DNA of 64,000 nucleotides from Kiritimatiellia bacterium (GTDB lineage Bacteria > Verrucomicrobiota > Kiritimatiellia > RFP12 > DVOR01). A program made the position numbers and the translations under genes. Each line of letters opens with the position of its first letter. Position 1 is the first letter of the stretch. Positions 1,276 to 43,051 of the stretch are shown piece by piece. The notes below the pieces were generated by a model. It saw nothing but the letters and a program-made list of their open reading frames with translations. It was not told where the DNA came from and ran no database searches. Where the stretch lies: the NCBI GenBank assembly GCA_017531445.1, contig JAFXKZ010000001.1, forward strand, positions 1 to 64,000. The letters run 5' to 3'.

Positions 1276-1824
1276 ATGAAAAAATTACTCCTTGTAATCA
1301 CGTTGCTGATTGGTGCATTGAGCTACGGCGCAACAGTGAAATGGTCAGTAGGCAATTACACATTCAATGTTGGTGGTGCGGCACTTACATCAGGAATTGC
1401 GTATCTGATTTCCACGGATACTTCTGTAGCGTCGCCTACGATTACAAAAGAAAGTCTAACCTCATGGACGACCCAGTTTACGGGAGTCAATAGTGTCACG
1501 ATTACGAATGGCGGAGTTACAGGGTCGGACTTTCTTGCCTCAAATGCGGACCTCACGGTCGGGAACACGTATAATTTTTATTTGTTGGTCTTAGACAATA
1601 GTGATGCTGCACAAGCGCAAAATTACTTCCTTTCTGGGACAACCCCCGGAACGCTTATCTCTGAAGGTGGTCCGACAGATCAAAATACATTGGCTTTGAA
1701 GTTTGGAGGGAAGGGGACTTCAAATATGCCCGCGACTCCGGATTGGGCAACTGTGCCGGAGCCGACGGCGTTGGCGTTGTTGGCACTCGGTGTGGCCGGG
1801 TTGGCTTTGCGCCGCCGTGCGTAA
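1276..1824 (+). CDS. PEP-CTERM sorted secreted protein
   Basis: This 182-residue protein starts at the ATG at 1276, six bases after GAGG; an in-frame ATG at 1264 overlaps that ribosome site and is less likely. It has a signal peptide (MKKLLLVITLLIGALSYGA) and a beta-rich Thr/Ser/Gly body. The C-end carries a PEP-CTERM tail: VPEPTALALLALG, a hydrophobic stretch and RRRA. In this family the tail is recognised by an exosortase and the protein is moved to the cell surface or extracellular matrix. No exosortase is in the window. It lies 44 bp after the silent cassette and could be co-transcribed with it when that is switched on. The function of the body is unknown. Confidence 0.85.
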   Translation: MKKLLLVITLLIGALSYGATVKWSVGNYTFNVGGAALTSGIAYLISTDTSVASPTITKESLTSWTTQFTGVNSVTITNGGVTGSDFLASNADLTVGNTYNFYLLVLDNSDAAQAQNYFLSGTTPGTLISEGGPTDQNTLALKFGGKGTSNMPATPDWATVPEPTALALLALGVAGLALRRRA

Positions 1825-7271: not shown

Positions 7272-7877
7272 TCAGGCAATTTTGCGCTTGAGTGCCAGCC
7301 CTGCCACGCCGAGGGCGAGCAGCGCAAGTGCCGTCGGCTCGGGAACACCGGGCGCAGGGACATCGGAAGCGGTAAGCGTCATTGAAGGGATCCACGCATT
7401 TGCGGCTTCGTTCCGCACAACGCTTGCGCCGAATTTATCCATGCGACTGCCCTCTGCGTCATAACCAAAAAGCGTATAGGTTTTTGTGACATCTACGATT
7501 AAATCTGTAAAGGTGATAAGGCTGGATTTGCGCGTATAGAATCCATTATTACTGAGCGTTGTGACATAATCGCCGTTTGCAGTCACTGTGCCGGTGGCGA
7601 TTTCAGTGTCGCCTTCAAACAACTTTACGGTTGCGGGAACGTTTTCCTCATGTTGACGACGTGCAATAAGGATTGTTTCCAAAACGACGTTCCCGGAAGT
7701 GGGAAGTGTGCTGGTGATGGTGGCATCAGCAGCAAATGAAATCGTAATACCTGCGGGAAAATCATAGTTCCCACCCCATGTTACAGCGGTGCCGTTGCTG
7801 TTTGTCCATGTGTAGGTCACTGCCTGTGCGAGTGTAGCGCAGAAGAGCGCAACAGAAAGAAGCATCAGTTTTTTCAT
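7272..7877 (-). CDS. PEP-CTERM sorted secreted protein
   Basis: This 201-residue protein starts at the ATG at 7877, eight bases after AAGGA; an upstream in-frame ATG overlaps that site. A signal peptide (MKKLMLLSVALFCATLAQA) precedes a beta-rich body with many Thr, Ser, Gly and Asn residues. The C-end is VPEPTALALLALG, a hydrophobic stretch and LKRKIA, nearly the same tail as the protein at 1276-1824. Exosortase-type sorting to the surface is expected from the family. The bodies of the two proteins share little, so they are likely separate cargo using one sorting tail. Its promoter contains a C9 tract, suggesting variable expression. Confidence 0.87.
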   Translation of the reverse strand: MKKLMLLSVALFCATLAQAVTYTWTNSNGTAVTWGGNYDFPAGITISFAADATITSTLPTSGNVVLETILIARRQHEENVPATVKLFEGDTEIATGTVTANGDYVTTLSNNGFYTRKSSLITFTDLIVDVTKTYTLFGYDAEGSRMDKFGASVVRNEAANAWIPSMTLTASDVPAPGVPEPTALALLALGVAGLALKRKIA

Positions 7878-7926: not shown

Positions 7927-7955
7927 AGGATAGCATAAGTCGCGGGGGGGGGCAA
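7927..7955 (-). promoter_or_regulatory. Promoter with C9 homopolymer tract
   Basis: On the minus strand TTGCCC (7950-7955) lies 17 bp from TATCCT (7927-7932, preceded by TGC). A run of nine C (plus-strand G 7944-7952) spans the end of the -35 and the first six bases of the spacer, so slippage would change the -35 to -10 distance. Confidence 0.55.
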
Positions 7956-8079
7956 GACTTATTTAGCATGGAGATGAAAAGGGAGTGCTTTCCTGCGGGG
8001 GGTGGAGAGGTGTTTTCCCCGAAGGAAGTTTTCCGGAGGCGGAAGGCGTTGGGCTTTTCTGCCGTGCAGAAGGCATTTG

Positions 8080-30374: not shown

Positions 30375-30415
30375 AACGCGTCTCCGGTTTTTCCCGGAGG
30401 CGCGTTTCATTTTCA
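30375..30415 (+). terminator. Rho-independent terminator after the symporter
   Basis: AACGCG(T)CTCCGG pairs with CCGGAG(G)CGCGTT around TTTTTC, followed by TCATTTT. Confidence 0.8.
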
Positions 30416-30504
30416 GCAGGCGTGTGCGCCAAAATGGGGCGGTTCATGTGCGTAACGTGTGCGGTTTGCATATTGACATGGGGGCCGTTTTGATTCTTTC
30501 GGGA

Positions 30505-30606
30505 TCTTAATGCTGCGGAAAAAGGCCAAAAAATAGTCCCTGTACCAATGCACCTGCGGCATCGCGGGGACTCAGTGCTGCGGAGAAAAGGCCGAAAAAT
30601 AGTATC
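30505..30606 (+). repeat. Two 62-bp-spaced imperfect direct repeats
   Basis: AATGCTGCGGAAAAAGGCC... (from about 30510) and AGTGCTGCGGAGAAAAGGCC... (from about 30572) share about 30 bp, both continuing AAAAATAGT. The following sequence (GATCGCGGCGGATTCTTAGC) partly resembles a third degenerate copy. No gene is seen in this 600-bp gap. Confidence 0.75.
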
Positions 30607-30740
30607 AACGCGATGGCGGATGCTTTTGACAGATCCCGTGATCGCGGCGGATTCTTAGCATGGTTGTTTTTTCAAAGCAAAGCTCTTGCGCGTGAAGATG
30701 CCCGTTGGTGGCGTTGAAGAGGGGCAAAGTGGTGCTACAA

Positions 30741-30885
30741 TGTGGGCGAACTGCAGAAGCAATCCGGGCGAAGTTGAAGTTTACTGCCGCCCAAATTGAA
30801 ACGCCTTTCCGCCTTGCTGTGTGCCAGTGAGCCCGCGCCACTCCAGATTTAATGCCGCTCAATTGAAAAGACTTTCCGCCGGGAG
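30741..30885. repeat. 22-bp-phased GGGCGA array with two tails (copy 5)
   Basis: Forward cores start at 30744 and 30766 (22 bp apart), and a reverse core sits near 30792. A GCCGCYCAAATTGAAA...CTTTCCGCC unit occurs at about 30786 and again at about 30853 (67 bp apart), the second ending CTTTCCGCCGGGAG, like the tail of other copies. Confidence 0.75.
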
Positions 30886-31008
30886 AGACCTTGCGCTCCG
30901 GCGAAAGCACGTTTTCTAAATCCGCAGGAAAGCGGGGGGGTCAAGACGTGTGTTACATTTCTTTAGTGCGATTAACGACTGCGCCAGCGATGGGTGCGAT
31001 TTCCGGTT

Positions 31009-32574
31009 TCAGGGCTGTTGTTGCCGTTTCTCCAGGGTAATGCCGCGGTAGGTTACGCCGATATGCTGCGTCTTTCCGGCGATGCCGGAATAGAAGATGA
31101 GTTGCCAATGACCGCTCTTGGGCGTGGAAAATTCATAGGTAAGACCACCCTTTGCCCGGATGTAATCGAGGTCGTAAAGGGCGCGCGTGAAGCATTTTTT
31201 GGCGCAGGGATCGTAAATCCCCAACGAAATCCCGGCCGTCTCTCCGGCATTTACCTCAACGGCATTTACGTTCAGCACGTAGGTCGCGCCATTTTCCAGA
31301 GGCGCATTCAGAGCCCGAAAATGGCAGGTTTTCTTTTTCTCAGGCGGGAGAGTTAAGGTCTCCATTGCCGCAACGGGAGTGGTGGCAGTCTCGGCGAGGG
31401 GTGTTTCGCTTTCGCTTAACTTTAGGAGAATACTCCTCCGGCTGGAGGGGTTGAGCATAATCATCACAAGGTCCGGACGCGTCCGGCGGATGTATTCCAA
31501 TGCCGAGCAGTCTTTGAAGTGACGCAGGTCGATCAGGTCAACCTCCCGGTAGCAGAGCGCGAGGAATCCGGCGATGGCATTGACAAACGAATCTTTGATG
31601 ATTAAGAGGCGTTTGGAGGAAGTTGCTTGGGGATTCCAACATTTGACGAGTGGATGGTCGCCCCCCAAATAGACCACATAGGCGCAGGTTTGATAGAAAT
31701 CGTGGCGTTGATCAATCCATTTCCGCTCCAGAAAAGTATCGGCATACGCTCCTTTACGCAAGTTGTTTTTTGCGGGAATGGCCACCGAAAACGAGGTTTC
31801 AAAGCGCGGTTCATACCAGAGCAGTGTGTCCAATCCGCCGTAGTAACGCCCCACACGTCTGCCTTCCGAGCCCAACCACCAGGCGTTTCGCGTATGGAGC
31901 GTCCAGCGGGTTTCCTCCAAAAGTCCAAGATCGCGCTCGGGCGTACCCAGGATGCCGTCAATCTTTTTCACAATCAACGGCGCCGCTTTCAGTGCGCCGC
32001 GCGCGTTCCAGTGGTGGTCGGTGGCATAGAAGTAGCGGGCAAGATCTTCCGGACGTTCGTTTATTACCGATCGCATGTCCAGGGTGTCGATGTGGCGTTG
32101 CGCCAGCATTTCCAACAGTAAATCAGAATCCTGATTCGTCGTCCGCTGCGTACCGGTGGGCAAGAGTTCGCTGTGGCGGTCGGGCTTATCGGGCAGATTG
32201 ATATAGAGCAACCGGCTGCCCAGCTTTTCCGCCTCCGCCTTGGTATGGGCGATTTTCGCTGCGGCCTCCGGGAGCTCTTTGTCGAGATTCCATGTATCCA
32301 AACGTGCCAACATCCCATTGTTCAGGCGGGCAATCTTGTTGTAGACCCTTTGTCCGAGCAAACGGGCATAGGCGCCATTCAATTCTATAAAGGTGTTTTT
32401 CCCTTTGAACTGCTGTACATATTTTGTGTGCGTAGCGTGGATCAGCTTGCTGAACGAGCGGTGGTCTGGCGTTTCCAGAAGACAACGTAGTGCCACTTTC
32501 AGGTTGGCTATCGTCAGCACAGTAATCAATCCGATGAAGCAGAACGCGAGACTCTTTTTGGCAATGTTCTTCAT
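31009..32574 (-). CDS. AlgJ/AlgX-like SGNH O-acetyltransferase partner
   Basis: This 521-residue protein has an N-terminal signal anchor (SLAFCFIGLITVLTIANLKV) and a periplasmic domain like the AlgJ/AlgX family that transfers acetyl groups to exported polysaccharide. The family motif ATDHHWNARG (Asp-His pair) is at about residue 188. A later SFVNAIAGFLALCYREVDLIDLRHF segment fits the SGNH-like core, and a possible carbohydrate-binding C-domain follows. It lies 6 bp downstream of the AlgI-like MBOAT gene, as in alginate and other polysaccharide O-acetylation systems. The polymer is unknown but the phosphoglycerol-type surface glycan from 12-18 kb is a candidate. Confidence 0.87.
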   Translation of the reverse strand: MKNIAKKSLAFCFIGLITVLTIANLKVALRCLLETPDHRSFSKLIHATHTKYVQQFKGKNTFIELNGAYARLLGQRVYNKIARLNNGMLARLDTWNLDKELPEAAAKIAHTKAEAEKLGSRLLYINLPDKPDRHSELLPTGTQRTTNQDSDLLLEMLAQRHIDTLDMRSVINERPEDLARYFYATDHHWNARGALKAAPLIVKKIDGILGTPERDLGLLEETRWTLHTRNAWWLGSEGRRVGRYYGGLDTLLWYEPRFETSFSVAIPAKNNLRKGAYADTFLERKWIDQRHDFYQTCAYVVYLGGDHPLVKCWNPQATSSKRLLIIKDSFVNAIAGFLALCYREVDLIDLRHFKDCSALEYIRRTRPDLVMIMLNPSSRRSILLKLSESETPLAETATTPVAAMETLTLPPEKKKTCHFRALNAPLENGATYVLNVNAVEVNAGETAGISLGIYDPCAKKCFTRALYDLDYIRAKGGLTYEFSTPKSGHWQLIFYSGIAGKTQHIGVTYRGITLEKRQQQP

Positions 32575-32580
32575 GAGACC

Positions 32581-34014
32581 TCAGAAATTGAAGTAGATAA
32601 AGGGATTGTGTGCGTTCATGATCAGATAGGAAACCCCTATCAGGAAGAGGAGCAGTTGCACGGCATAACCGAGCGTTGTGAGGGCTTTTGCCAAACGAAT
32701 CTGACGCTGTGCCAGACGCTGTGTCAACGTTTTGAAGAGGGGAATCGAGCAGAGAATGCCGACGAGCAGCACCCATTTAATCTCGTTGAAATGGAAGTAA
32801 AAGGCATCGTCAATCCATGCTACAGCCGAGCCGCCTGCCATGATTTTCAGATAGTCGCCCGCCGCCGTCAGATTTTCGGCACGGAAGATCACCCAGCCGC
32901 AGACGACCGCAAGCAGCGTCACTCCCCGGTAAAGTCCGCGCCACCAGACACCACTTTCCAATTTTTGCGGCACGGAAAACCATTTTTCTGCTGTAATCAT
33001 TACGCCGTAGAGTGCGCCCCATACAATGAAGGTCCAGTTCGCACCATGCCAGATGCCGGTGGTAAACCAGGTGAGAAAGAGATTGAAAGAAAGCCGCACT
33101 TTGTTCTTTACGCGTGAACCGCCCAGCGGGAAATAGAGGTAGTCTCTGAACCAGCTTCCCAGCGAGATGTGCCAGCGTCTCCAGAACTCCGTCGCGCTTT
33201 TGGCGATATAAGGATAGTTGAAGTTCATGGGGAAGTTGAAGCCGAACATCAGCCCAAGCCCGATGGCCATTTCGGAATATCCGCTGAAGTCGAAATAGAT
33301 TTGCAGGGTGTAGCAAATTGCACCCAACCACGCCATGCTTACGGAAAGACCCTCCATTTCAAAGGCTTTGTCGGCCACGATGGCAAAGAGATTGGCCAGC
33401 AACATCTTTTTGTTGAAGCCGTAAAGGAAGCGCAGAACGCCCTGTGAGAACATTCCGAGGGTGACTTTACGGTATTCAATTTGCCGGCGGATGGTGGTAT
33501 AGCGCACGATGGGTCCGGCAATCAGTTGCGGGAAAAGCGCGATATAAAGCCCCAGAAAGGCCGGGTTCTTTTGTGCCGGCACACCGCGGTAGACATCGAT
33601 GACATAACTCATTGCCTGGAAGGTGAAAAAGGAGATCCCGATGGGAAGCACAAAACTGGTTTGCGGGATAATGCCCTGCCATCCGGGAAAGAGCGTACGG
33701 CAAATGTCGGTGATGAAGTTGCAATACTTGTAGAGAAACAGCACCGAGCAGTTCCCCAGAATTGCGAGGGTCAGGGCTCCTTTTGCGCAGCGGTTCCAGA
33801 GGTTTTTCTGAAGATGCCCCACGATGATCGCCGCCACATAGTTGAACAGGATGGAGGCAATCATCACCAGCACAAACTTCGGTTCGCCCCATGCGTAGAA
33901 GAAAAGCGATGCGGCCAGCAACCAATAATTCTTTATTCGCTCTGCCAGAAGGAAGTAGGTGCCGATGACAATCGGAAAGAAGAGAAAGAGAAATTCCAGA
34001 CTGGTAAATAGCAT
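32581..34014 (-). CDS. MBOAT O-acyltransferase (AlgI-like)
   Basis: The 477-residue inner-membrane protein has 10 or more helices and the MBOAT features of AlgI/DltB: LFFYAWGEPKFV near the N-end, SYVIDVYRG, YFDFSGYSEMAIGLGLMFGF, SATEFWRRWHISLGSWFRDY and the catalytic His in TGIWHGANWTFIVWG. It moves acetyl groups from a cytoplasmic donor across the membrane for the AlgJ-like partner encoded next. The start has a good ribosome site (AATAAGGAG). Its promoter has a G11 spacer, suggesting on/off expression. Confidence 0.93.
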   Translation of the reverse strand: MLFTSLEFLFLFFPIVIGTYFLLAERIKNYWLLAASLFFYAWGEPKFVLVMIASILFNYVAAIIVGHLQKNLWNRCAKGALTLAILGNCSVLFLYKYCNFITDICRTLFPGWQGIIPQTSFVLPIGISFFTFQAMSYVIDVYRGVPAQKNPAFLGLYIALFPQLIAGPIVRYTTIRRQIEYRKVTLGMFSQGVLRFLYGFNKKMLLANLFAIVADKAFEMEGLSVSMAWLGAICYTLQIYFDFSGYSEMAIGLGLMFGFNFPMNFNYPYIAKSATEFWRRWHISLGSWFRDYLYFPLGGSRVKNKVRLSFNLFLTWFTTGIWHGANWTFIVWGALYGVMITAEKWFSVPQKLESGVWWRGLYRGVTLLAVVCGWVIFRAENLTAAGDYLKIMAGGSAVAWIDDAFYFHFNEIKWVLLVGILCSIPLFKTLTQRLAQRQIRLAKALTTLGYAVQLLLFLIGVSYLIMNAHNPFIYFNF

Positions 34015-34075
34015 CTGCCACTCCTTATTATTGTCTTACCGGGCTGCCACTGCCACTGTATGCCCATTTCTTACA

Positions 34076-34104
34076 AGTATACTCCCCCCCCCCCAGACTG
34101 TCAA
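34076..34104 (-). promoter_or_regulatory. Phase-variable-type promoter with G11 spacer tract
   Basis: On the minus strand consensus TTGACA (34099-34104) and TATACT (34076-34081) are 17 bp apart, and 11 of the 17 spacer bases are a pure G run (plus-strand C 34084-34094). Adding or losing one or two G would change the spacing that sigma70 RNA polymerase needs. The ATG of the AlgI-like gene is about 55 nt from the predicted start. Confidence 0.85.
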
Positions 34105-34149
34105 GCGGGGGCGTAGAATAGACGCGTCGGCAAGGGTGGCAACCGCCCC

Positions 34150-34268
34150 CGGCGGAGCGGTTTTTGAACATCGGCGAAACAGCGGGGGGAAGATCGCCGA
34201 AAGTCGGGGTGAGAGTCGCCCATATGGCACGTGAATATCGGCGAAAGTGAAAAACGCTTCCGGCGGAG
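34150..34268. repeat. 22-bp-phased GGGCGA array with inverted tails (copy 6)
   Basis: Cores occur at 34172 and 34239 (forward, 67 bp apart) and 34199 and 34221 (reverse, 22 bp apart). The right tail GTGAAAAACGCTTCCGGCGG (34247 on) has an imperfect inverted counterpart on the left (GGCGGAGCGGTTTTTGAACA, from 34151). Tails inverted at both ends resemble a small non-autonomous mobile element. Confidence 0.8.
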
Positions 34269-34561
34269 TGTAAGCTCTCACCGGATGCGGTTGAAAAACG
34301 TCTTCGGGTCTCTTCTTTGCGGATGCGCCCGGCGGGGGAGCGCAGCTGCCGTGGAAAAGCGCAGAGCGCACCTGTGTTTGGATGCCTTTGTCGCTGGGGT
34401 GGCAAAGGCGGGTGCGCACGGGGATGAGGGCAGAGCATACGCGACGTTTCACACACAGTTGGCGTGGCGGCAAGGCGTTGTAGCGCGCGGCGAAGAAACG
34501 GGGAGGGGGATTTTCCAGCAGGGAACTGCGGCTTTTGCTTCCGTTTTTCACGCGTTTTCGC

Positions 34562-34567
34562 TATACT
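34562..34567 (+). promoter_or_regulatory. TATACT -10 directly before the YkgJ gene
   Basis: TATACT ends 5 bases before the ATG at 34573, so transcription should begin at or next to that ATG. No ribosome site is present; the -35 is weak (TTGCTT, 21 bp away, or TTCCGT at 17 bp). Confidence 0.45.
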
Positions 34568-34572
34568 ATTAG

Positions 34573-34944
34573 ATGAATATGCGTGTATCGGCAAACGATT
34601 TCGTCTGTCAATGTTGCGGTGCTTGTTGCAAAGTGCCGGGCTATGTGCGTCTCACCGAGGCGGATGTGGAGGCCATGGCCGGGGAGCTGGGGCTCACAGA
34701 AGAGGCTTTTATCGAAGCGTATACCGAGCTTTCCCCCACGCGCAGCGGATTGGTCCTGAAGGGCGATCCTGCCGCGCCGTGCTGTTTTTTGACGGCGGAA
34801 AATCTGTGCCGGATACACGCGGCGCGTCCGCAGCAGTGCCGGGACTATCCGGCGCGTTGGCGGAGCGAAGCCATTGAATCGGTTTGTGCAGCCGCGCGTT
34901 TGCGCCGCTCCGGCGTGGGCGCAGCAACGGAGCAGACGGATTGA
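34573..34944 (+). CDS. YkgJ-family cysteine-cluster protein
   Basis: This 123-residue protein has the UPF0153/YkgJ signature: FVCQCCGACCKVPGYV, then PCCFLTAENLCRIHAARPQQCRDYPARW. Eight or more cysteines in CxxCGxCC and CxxH contexts bind zinc or an iron-sulfur cluster. The molecular role of the family is unknown. Two in-frame ATGs (34573, 34579) are possible starts; the predicted transcript is leaderless at the first or has a tiny leader at the second. It ends 13 bp before the exbB start and is probably co-transcribed with the transport operon. Confidence 0.85.
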   Translation: MNMRVSANDFVCQCCGACCKVPGYVRLTEADVEAMAGELGLTEEAFIEAYTELSPTRSGLVLKGDPAAPCCFLTAENLCRIHAARPQQCRDYPARWRSEAIESVCAAARLRRSGVGAATEQTD

Positions 34945-42077: not shown

Positions 42078-42153
42078 TGGTAGGGGTGCACGGGCTTGAA
42101 CCGTGGACCCAGTGATTAAGAGTCACTTGCTCTACCAACTGAGCTACACCCCC
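42078..42153 (-). tRNA. tRNA-Lys (CTT), copy 2 in transcription order
   Basis: A 76-base cloverleaf with encoded CCA. The anticodon loop CTCTTAA sits in a 5-bp AGTGA/TCACT stem, so the anticodon is CTT (Lys). It is identical to the copy at 42272-42347. Confidence 0.96.
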
Positions 42154-42160
42154 ATAAAGA

Positions 42161-42236
<76 letters not shown>

Positions 42237-42271
42237 TTTGGTAGGTTGTCTTTGGCGTTCCATCTTCGGAA

Positions 42272-42347
42272 TGGTAGGGGTGCACGGGCTTGAACCGTGG
42301 ACCCAGTGATTAAGAGTCACTTGCTCTACCAACTGAGCTACACCCCC
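42272..42347 (-). tRNA. tRNA-Lys (CTT), copy 1 in transcription order
   Basis: Same sequence as 42078-42153, with encoded CCA and anticodon CTT. The pair repeat unit (Gly then Lys) is 195 bp apart (42161 vs 42356), so the tandem duplication is recent or kept identical by conversion. Confidence 0.96.
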
Positions 42348-42355
42348 ATAAGAGA

Positions 42356-42431
<76 letters not shown>

Positions 42432-42887: not shown

Positions 42888-42894
42888 AATAGAC

Positions 42895-43012
42895 GTCATT
42901 TTCAGGGACGGGTGAGATTCCCTATCGGTGGTATTCAGCCCACGGGGTCTTTGTCGGGTGGCAGGGGCCGGATGCGATATTGCGCAGCCGACGGTTAGAG
43001 TCCGGAATGAAG
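42895..43012 (+). ncRNA. FMN riboswitch (RFN element)
   Basis: The conserved blocks of the FMN aptamer are present in order: CAGGGACGGGTGAGATTCCC, TCGGTGGTATTCAGCCCACG, then GGGGCCGGATGCGATATTGC, AGCCGACGGTTAGAGTCCGG and ATGAAGA. It should turn down the riboflavin operon when FMN is high. The ribBA start codon is about 40 bases downstream; the mode (terminator or ribosome-site masking) is not clear, as no U-tract hairpin is seen. Confidence 0.95.
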
Positions 43013-43051
43013 AAGATGACGGGCGCCCCTTTGGGGGCATTGGATGAAAGT

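Follow-up and report, generated by a model that had tools for sequence, protein, structure and literature searches.

In the window, as the whole 64,000-nucleotide stretch of Kiritimatiellia DNA is called here, an apparent polysaccharide O-acetylation operon is preceded by what is probably a slippage-set poly-G promoter of the sigma-70 type, a member of a genus-wide class; judged from sequence comparison, the probability of this reading is put at about 0.75. Strong indirect support for slippage comes from the recurrence of such promoters across the genus, their floating spacing, orthologous promoters that differ in tract length, and targets that encode surface proteins.

Promoter and operon in the window

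The elements of the promoter and of the operon behind it are the following.

34099 to 34104, minus strand: -35 hexamer TTGACA, consensus (sequence and promoter scoring)
34082 to 34098, minus strand: spacer of 17 bp, GTCTGGGGGGGGGGGAG (sequence)
34084 to 34094, minus strand: G11 homopolymer, the longest G/C tract of the genome assembly
34076 to 34081, minus strand: -10 hexamer TATACT, 5/6 (sequence and promoter scoring)
34021 to 34026, minus strand: ribosome-binding site AAGGAG, 6 nt before the ATG at 34014 (read from sequence)
32581 to 34014, minus strand: MBOAT acyltransferase (AlgI/DltB-like), 477 aa, operon gene 1 (PF03062, E=1.5e-28)
31009 to 32574, minus strand: AlgJ/AlgX-like SGNH protein, 521 aa (ALGX PF16822, E=1.1e-14; DHHW PF14286, E=3e-10)

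Read on the minus strand, window positions 34104 to 34076 are TTGACA-GTCTGGGGGGGGGGGAG-TATACT, and a single G run makes up 11 of the 17 spacer bases. The segment has a sigma-70 score of 11/12, the top promoter match within 30400-34700, and it holds a pure homopolymer of at least about 8 bases between recognisable -35 and -10 elements, the arrangement taken to define a porA-type promoter. The TTGACA-N17-TATACT promoter with G11 proposed in the preliminary description is thus confirmed, with its consensus -35, a -10 matching at 5/6 positions and a distance of 17 bp. Most likely, the promoter of the AlgI operon is of the sigma-70 type with a -35/-10 distance set by the poly-G tract. Upstream, the intergenic region contains a repeated ATCGGCGAAA motif at window 34170-34179 and 34237-34246, although two copies were reached in 10 of 100 shuffles; similar motifs also lie upstream of a C7 promoter at locus L204.

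Only 6 nt separate the MBOAT gene from the ALGX/DHHW gene, and this one operon joins an MBOAT protein and an SGNH/ALGX-domain partner with Pfam matches above cut-off. The nearest NCBIfam model for the MBOAT protein is DltB, with a score below cut-off. An MBOAT gene together with an ALGX-type gene is the usual pairing in polysaccharide O-acetylation systems, and O-acetylation of a surface polysaccharide is the most likely role of the operon. The gene order, MBOAT first and then an SGNH/ALGX-type gene, is shared with AlgI/AlgJ/AlgX, PatA/PatB, and DltB/DltD, whereas no adjoining glycan gene cluster was seen at the window operon. Elsewhere in the window, an FMN riboswitch (42894-43021, plus strand) precedes a ribBA-like gene, and four tRNA genes are clustered as two similar pairs (42081-42431, minus strand).

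Long G/C tracts and a second promoter class

The genome assembly to which the window belongs (G000) comprises 1.4 Mb and is ~50% complete. As a first-order estimate from the window, runs of at least 11 G/C are expected 0.04 times per 64 kb and ~0.9 times per 1.4 Mb. The G11 tract by itself is therefore mildly unusual, and it is its exact placement inside a near-consensus promoter that is the unusual part. Of the 10 distinct G/C runs in the assembly that are 9 or longer, seven lie in -35/-10 contexts: three in a conserved TTG-C9-..-TATNNT promoter, and the following four in TTGAC..TATNNT spacers.

Window 34084 to 34094: G11, spacing 17 bp
C2:338980: G10, spacing 19 bp
C2:64348: G9, spacing 15 bp
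C2:2141: C9, spacing 15 bp

A long tract of the coding type is also present, a G9 at G000:C2:483811-483819 (L022) within a 659-codon open frame, and coding tracts of this kind recur in relatives.

It could be argued that, within a genuine promoter, the G11 arose by chance or as a by-product of mutation and hardly affects expression, its length possibly being an assembly artefact. Composition alone would supply nearly one such run in the assembly, the closest AlgI ortholog lacks the tract (see below), and assembled tract lengths are error-prone. Yet this explanation is very improbable, as the tract sits inside a near-consensus spacer, 7 of the 10 long tracts lie in promoters, and the genus-wide pattern described below has 47 matches against none for its reversed version. 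In addition, by comparison with porA and tp0126, even a one-base indel should have consequences in a spacer of 17 bp (PMC3899988, PMC7864442).

The three C9 tracts in the conserved TTG-C9 promoter share the element AAATAAGTCTTG-C9-GNNNNTTATGCTATNNT and represent a second, poly-C class of promoter with the layout AAATAAGNCTTG-Cn-...-TATNNT, where AAATAAGNCTTG is a conserved upstream block. One copy is located in the window together with the gene that follows it.

7927 to 7964, minus strand: opc-like promoter, AAATAAGTCTTG-C9-GCGACTTATGC-TATCCT (pattern match, conserved element)
7272 to 7877, minus strand: PEP-CTERM secreted protein, MKKLMLLSV...VPEPTALALLALGVAGLALKRKIA (TIGR02595, 22.3 bits, cut-off 16)

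Here, the C9 at 7944-7952 covers both the -35 and the spacer (TTGCCC-N17-TATCCT, window 7964..7927). The genome has four copies of the poly-C promoter, with tracts of C9, C9, C9, and C7 and spacings of 17, 17, 17, and 15 bp, and all of them precede PEP-CTERM genes, accounting for 4 of the 5 such genes found by pattern. A further PEP-CTERM gene of the window (1756-1775, plus strand) has no long G/C tract upstream. The repeated C9 element was also considered as the leader of an RNA gene, which was rejected because Rfam assigned no RNA family to the tract regions and PEP-CTERM genes follow downstream.

Recurrence and floating tract length

Recurrence was examined in 17 genomes of the genus, all of uncultured gut Kiritimatiellota, and in 162 genomes of the order. 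In the order, the pattern TTGACN{2,9}G8N{0,6}TATNNT matches 87 times, with 47 matches falling within the genus of the window, while its reversed version has none in the same 162 genomes. The genus matches are spread over 11 of the 17 genomes, with 18 in genome G022 alone. The common layout is TTGACN-N4-G9/10-TGG-TATNNT, corresponding to an extended -10 promoter, and the window promoter shares it with AG replacing TGG. In a phylum-wide sample of 388 genomes, the strict form, in which TGG precedes the -10, was found in 1 of 198 genera, and other phyla gave scattered single matches. With the same layout on dozens of promoters in related species, most of them ahead of surface-protein genes, this looks more like a switching system used across the genus than an isolated case. 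A defect in mismatch repair, considered as the cause of the many tracts, was rejected for the genus, since MutS was found in 14 of 17 genomes, leaving no sign of a repair loss that would raise slippage; MutS was not found in the genome of the window, which says little at ~50% completeness.

Among 52 tract promoters of the genus, tract length shows no correlation with the length of the remaining spacer (r = -0.03), and the total -35/-10 spacing rises with tract length (r = 0.65), ranging from 11 to 22 bp and mostly from 13 to 20 bp. Spacing thus tracks tract length without compensation, and its variance exceeds that of ordinary promoters. Of 37 ordinary TTGACA..TATACT promoters in the genus, 36 keep to 17-18 bp, as opposed to 20 of the 43 tract promoters within 15-19 bp (Fisher p = 3e-7, a guide only, since different patterns served to find the two sets and some promoters are not independent). 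Tract length also differs between species and between paralogs. In a near-identical promoter pair from genomes G006 and G003 (98.5% identity over 330 bp), G9 stands against G8, and further orthologous pairs with agreeing flanks have G11/G10, G10/G9, and G13/G10, bearing in mind that homopolymer lengths in assemblies may contain sequencing error.

Relatives in the genus retain tracts at other loci, but not at the orthologous AlgI locus: the closest AlgI ortholog, and the only close one (G010, 80% identity), carries G5 at the corresponding position and no such spacer. No G run lies upstream of two AlgI homologues that are more distant (G021 and G004; 38-41% identity). The preliminary description had read the locus as a phase-variable promoter of a polysaccharide O-acetylation operon; the promoter, the position of the tract, and the target operon (PF03062, PF16822/PF14286) are borne out, and the reading as a whole is partly supported.

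Another explanation is that strong promoters of the genus carry the G tract not as a switch but as a fixed structural or regulatory element, acting through DNA shape or as a protein-binding site, with long runs as the extreme of a general preference for G-rich spacers. Ordinary TTGACA..TATACT spacers of the genus are indeed G-rich too (40% G, 21% C), and the surroundings of the tract (N4-Gn-TGG-TATNNT) are rather uniform. Moreover, genome G058 of family f3 carries nine TTGAC..G-tract promoters (e.g., L184-L186), nearly all with G9, in contrast to the floating lengths in the genus of the window, which suggests a fixed length or a structural role in that family. A fixed element is nevertheless unlikely for the genus, given that its tract promoters do not hold the 17-18 bp that ordinary ones do, that otherwise near-identical promoters are unequal in tract length, that poly-C at another position is also in use, and that the targets are biased towards surface proteins. 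Slippage in the tract remains the preferred reading.

Surface targets and proposed switching

Counting the 50 tract promoters of the genus with enough downstream sequence, a PEP-CTERM motif lies within 1.2 kb downstream on the same strand in 27, where ~1% would be expected, and the translated target genes clearly show signal peptides and the ending VPEPTALALLALGVAGLALRRR. Large secreted proteins and zinc-ribbon membrane proteins also recur as targets. Genes for the latter (MFCxxCG) were seen behind the tract promoters at G000:C2:2141 (L003), C2:338980 (L129), L165, and L166. In the G006/G003 pair (L153 on contig C41 and L167 on contig C7, respectively), identity breaks off where the signal peptide ends, the mature PEP-CTERM domain is unalignable, and identity resumes in the C-terminal part and continues across the next gene (92.6% over 1.9 kb). 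A second set, L160, L173, and L174, has the same pattern of a diverged mature domain between matching ends. Together, these cases suggest exchange of surface domains as cassettes behind a fixed promoter and signal peptide.

The closest precedents come from pathogens. In porA of Neisseria meningitidis, a poly-G tract lies in the spacer and the number of Gs sets transcription through the -35/-10 spacing (PMC3899988, PMC7864442). The latter source also describes tp0126 of Treponema pallidum, an OmpW homologue with poly-G between the -35 and -10 and a best state of 17 bp, the T. pallidum tpr genes, paralogous surface-protein genes whose poly-G tracts immediately precede the start site, and opc of N. 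meningitidis, with poly-C spanning the -35 (PMC7864442). The window promoter resembles tp0126 in its poly-G spacer and 17-bp distance, and the TTG-C7..9 class (e.g., window 7964..7927) resembles opc in that poly-C overlaps the -35 (PMC7864442). There are also differences. While porA is a single gene in a pathogen, the layout occurs up to ~20 times per genome in the Kiritimatiellota genus, and the window's tract promoter drives a glycan-modification operon. The products of tp0126 and tpr are porin-like outer-membrane proteins (PMC7864442), whereas the genus targets are mainly PEP-CTERM proteins. Unlike opc, the poly-C class is a multi-copy family with the conserved AAATAAGNCTTG block and PEP-CTERM targets. 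A literature search found no paper treating both phase variation and Kiritimatiellota, and among titles and abstract openings none on such switching of PEP-CTERM genes. The mechanism is already known from porA, opc, and tp0126, and it is the genus-wide deployment of poly-G and poly-C promoters that looks new.

In the proposed mechanism, slipped-strand mispairing at replication would add Gs to or remove Gs from the G11 tract, and each slip would shift the -35/-10 distance by 1 bp and change transcription stepwise. The assembled G11 state, with 17 bp, is near the optimum and should be the ON (strong) state; G10 or G12 would lower transcription, and G9 or G13 would lower it further. Subpopulations would then differ in surface acetylation. 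We infer the slippage within the population, the effect on transcription, and the target of acetylation. The window promoter belongs to a class found across the genus, made up of porA-like poly-G and opc-like poly-C promoters whose main targets are PEP-CTERM surface proteins. Whether slippage acts genome-wide, with dozens of surface-protein genes and some envelope operons each under their own poly-G or poly-C promoter, giving each cell a random combination of coats, and with the mature surface domain also exchanged as a cassette at some loci, is an evenly balanced question.

Slippage in promoter spacers has mostly been described for individual genes, in a small number of pathogens restricted to their hosts. 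A recurring, consensus-bearing promoter layout in a commensal lineage of the gut, directed at PEP-CTERM proteins and, in the window, at an O-acetylation operon, would represent an unusually broad deployment, and the tract-promoter layout provides a searchable sequence signature. If the proposal is true, metagenome reads already available would allow a direct test of combinatorial surface variation in uncultured gut bacteria.
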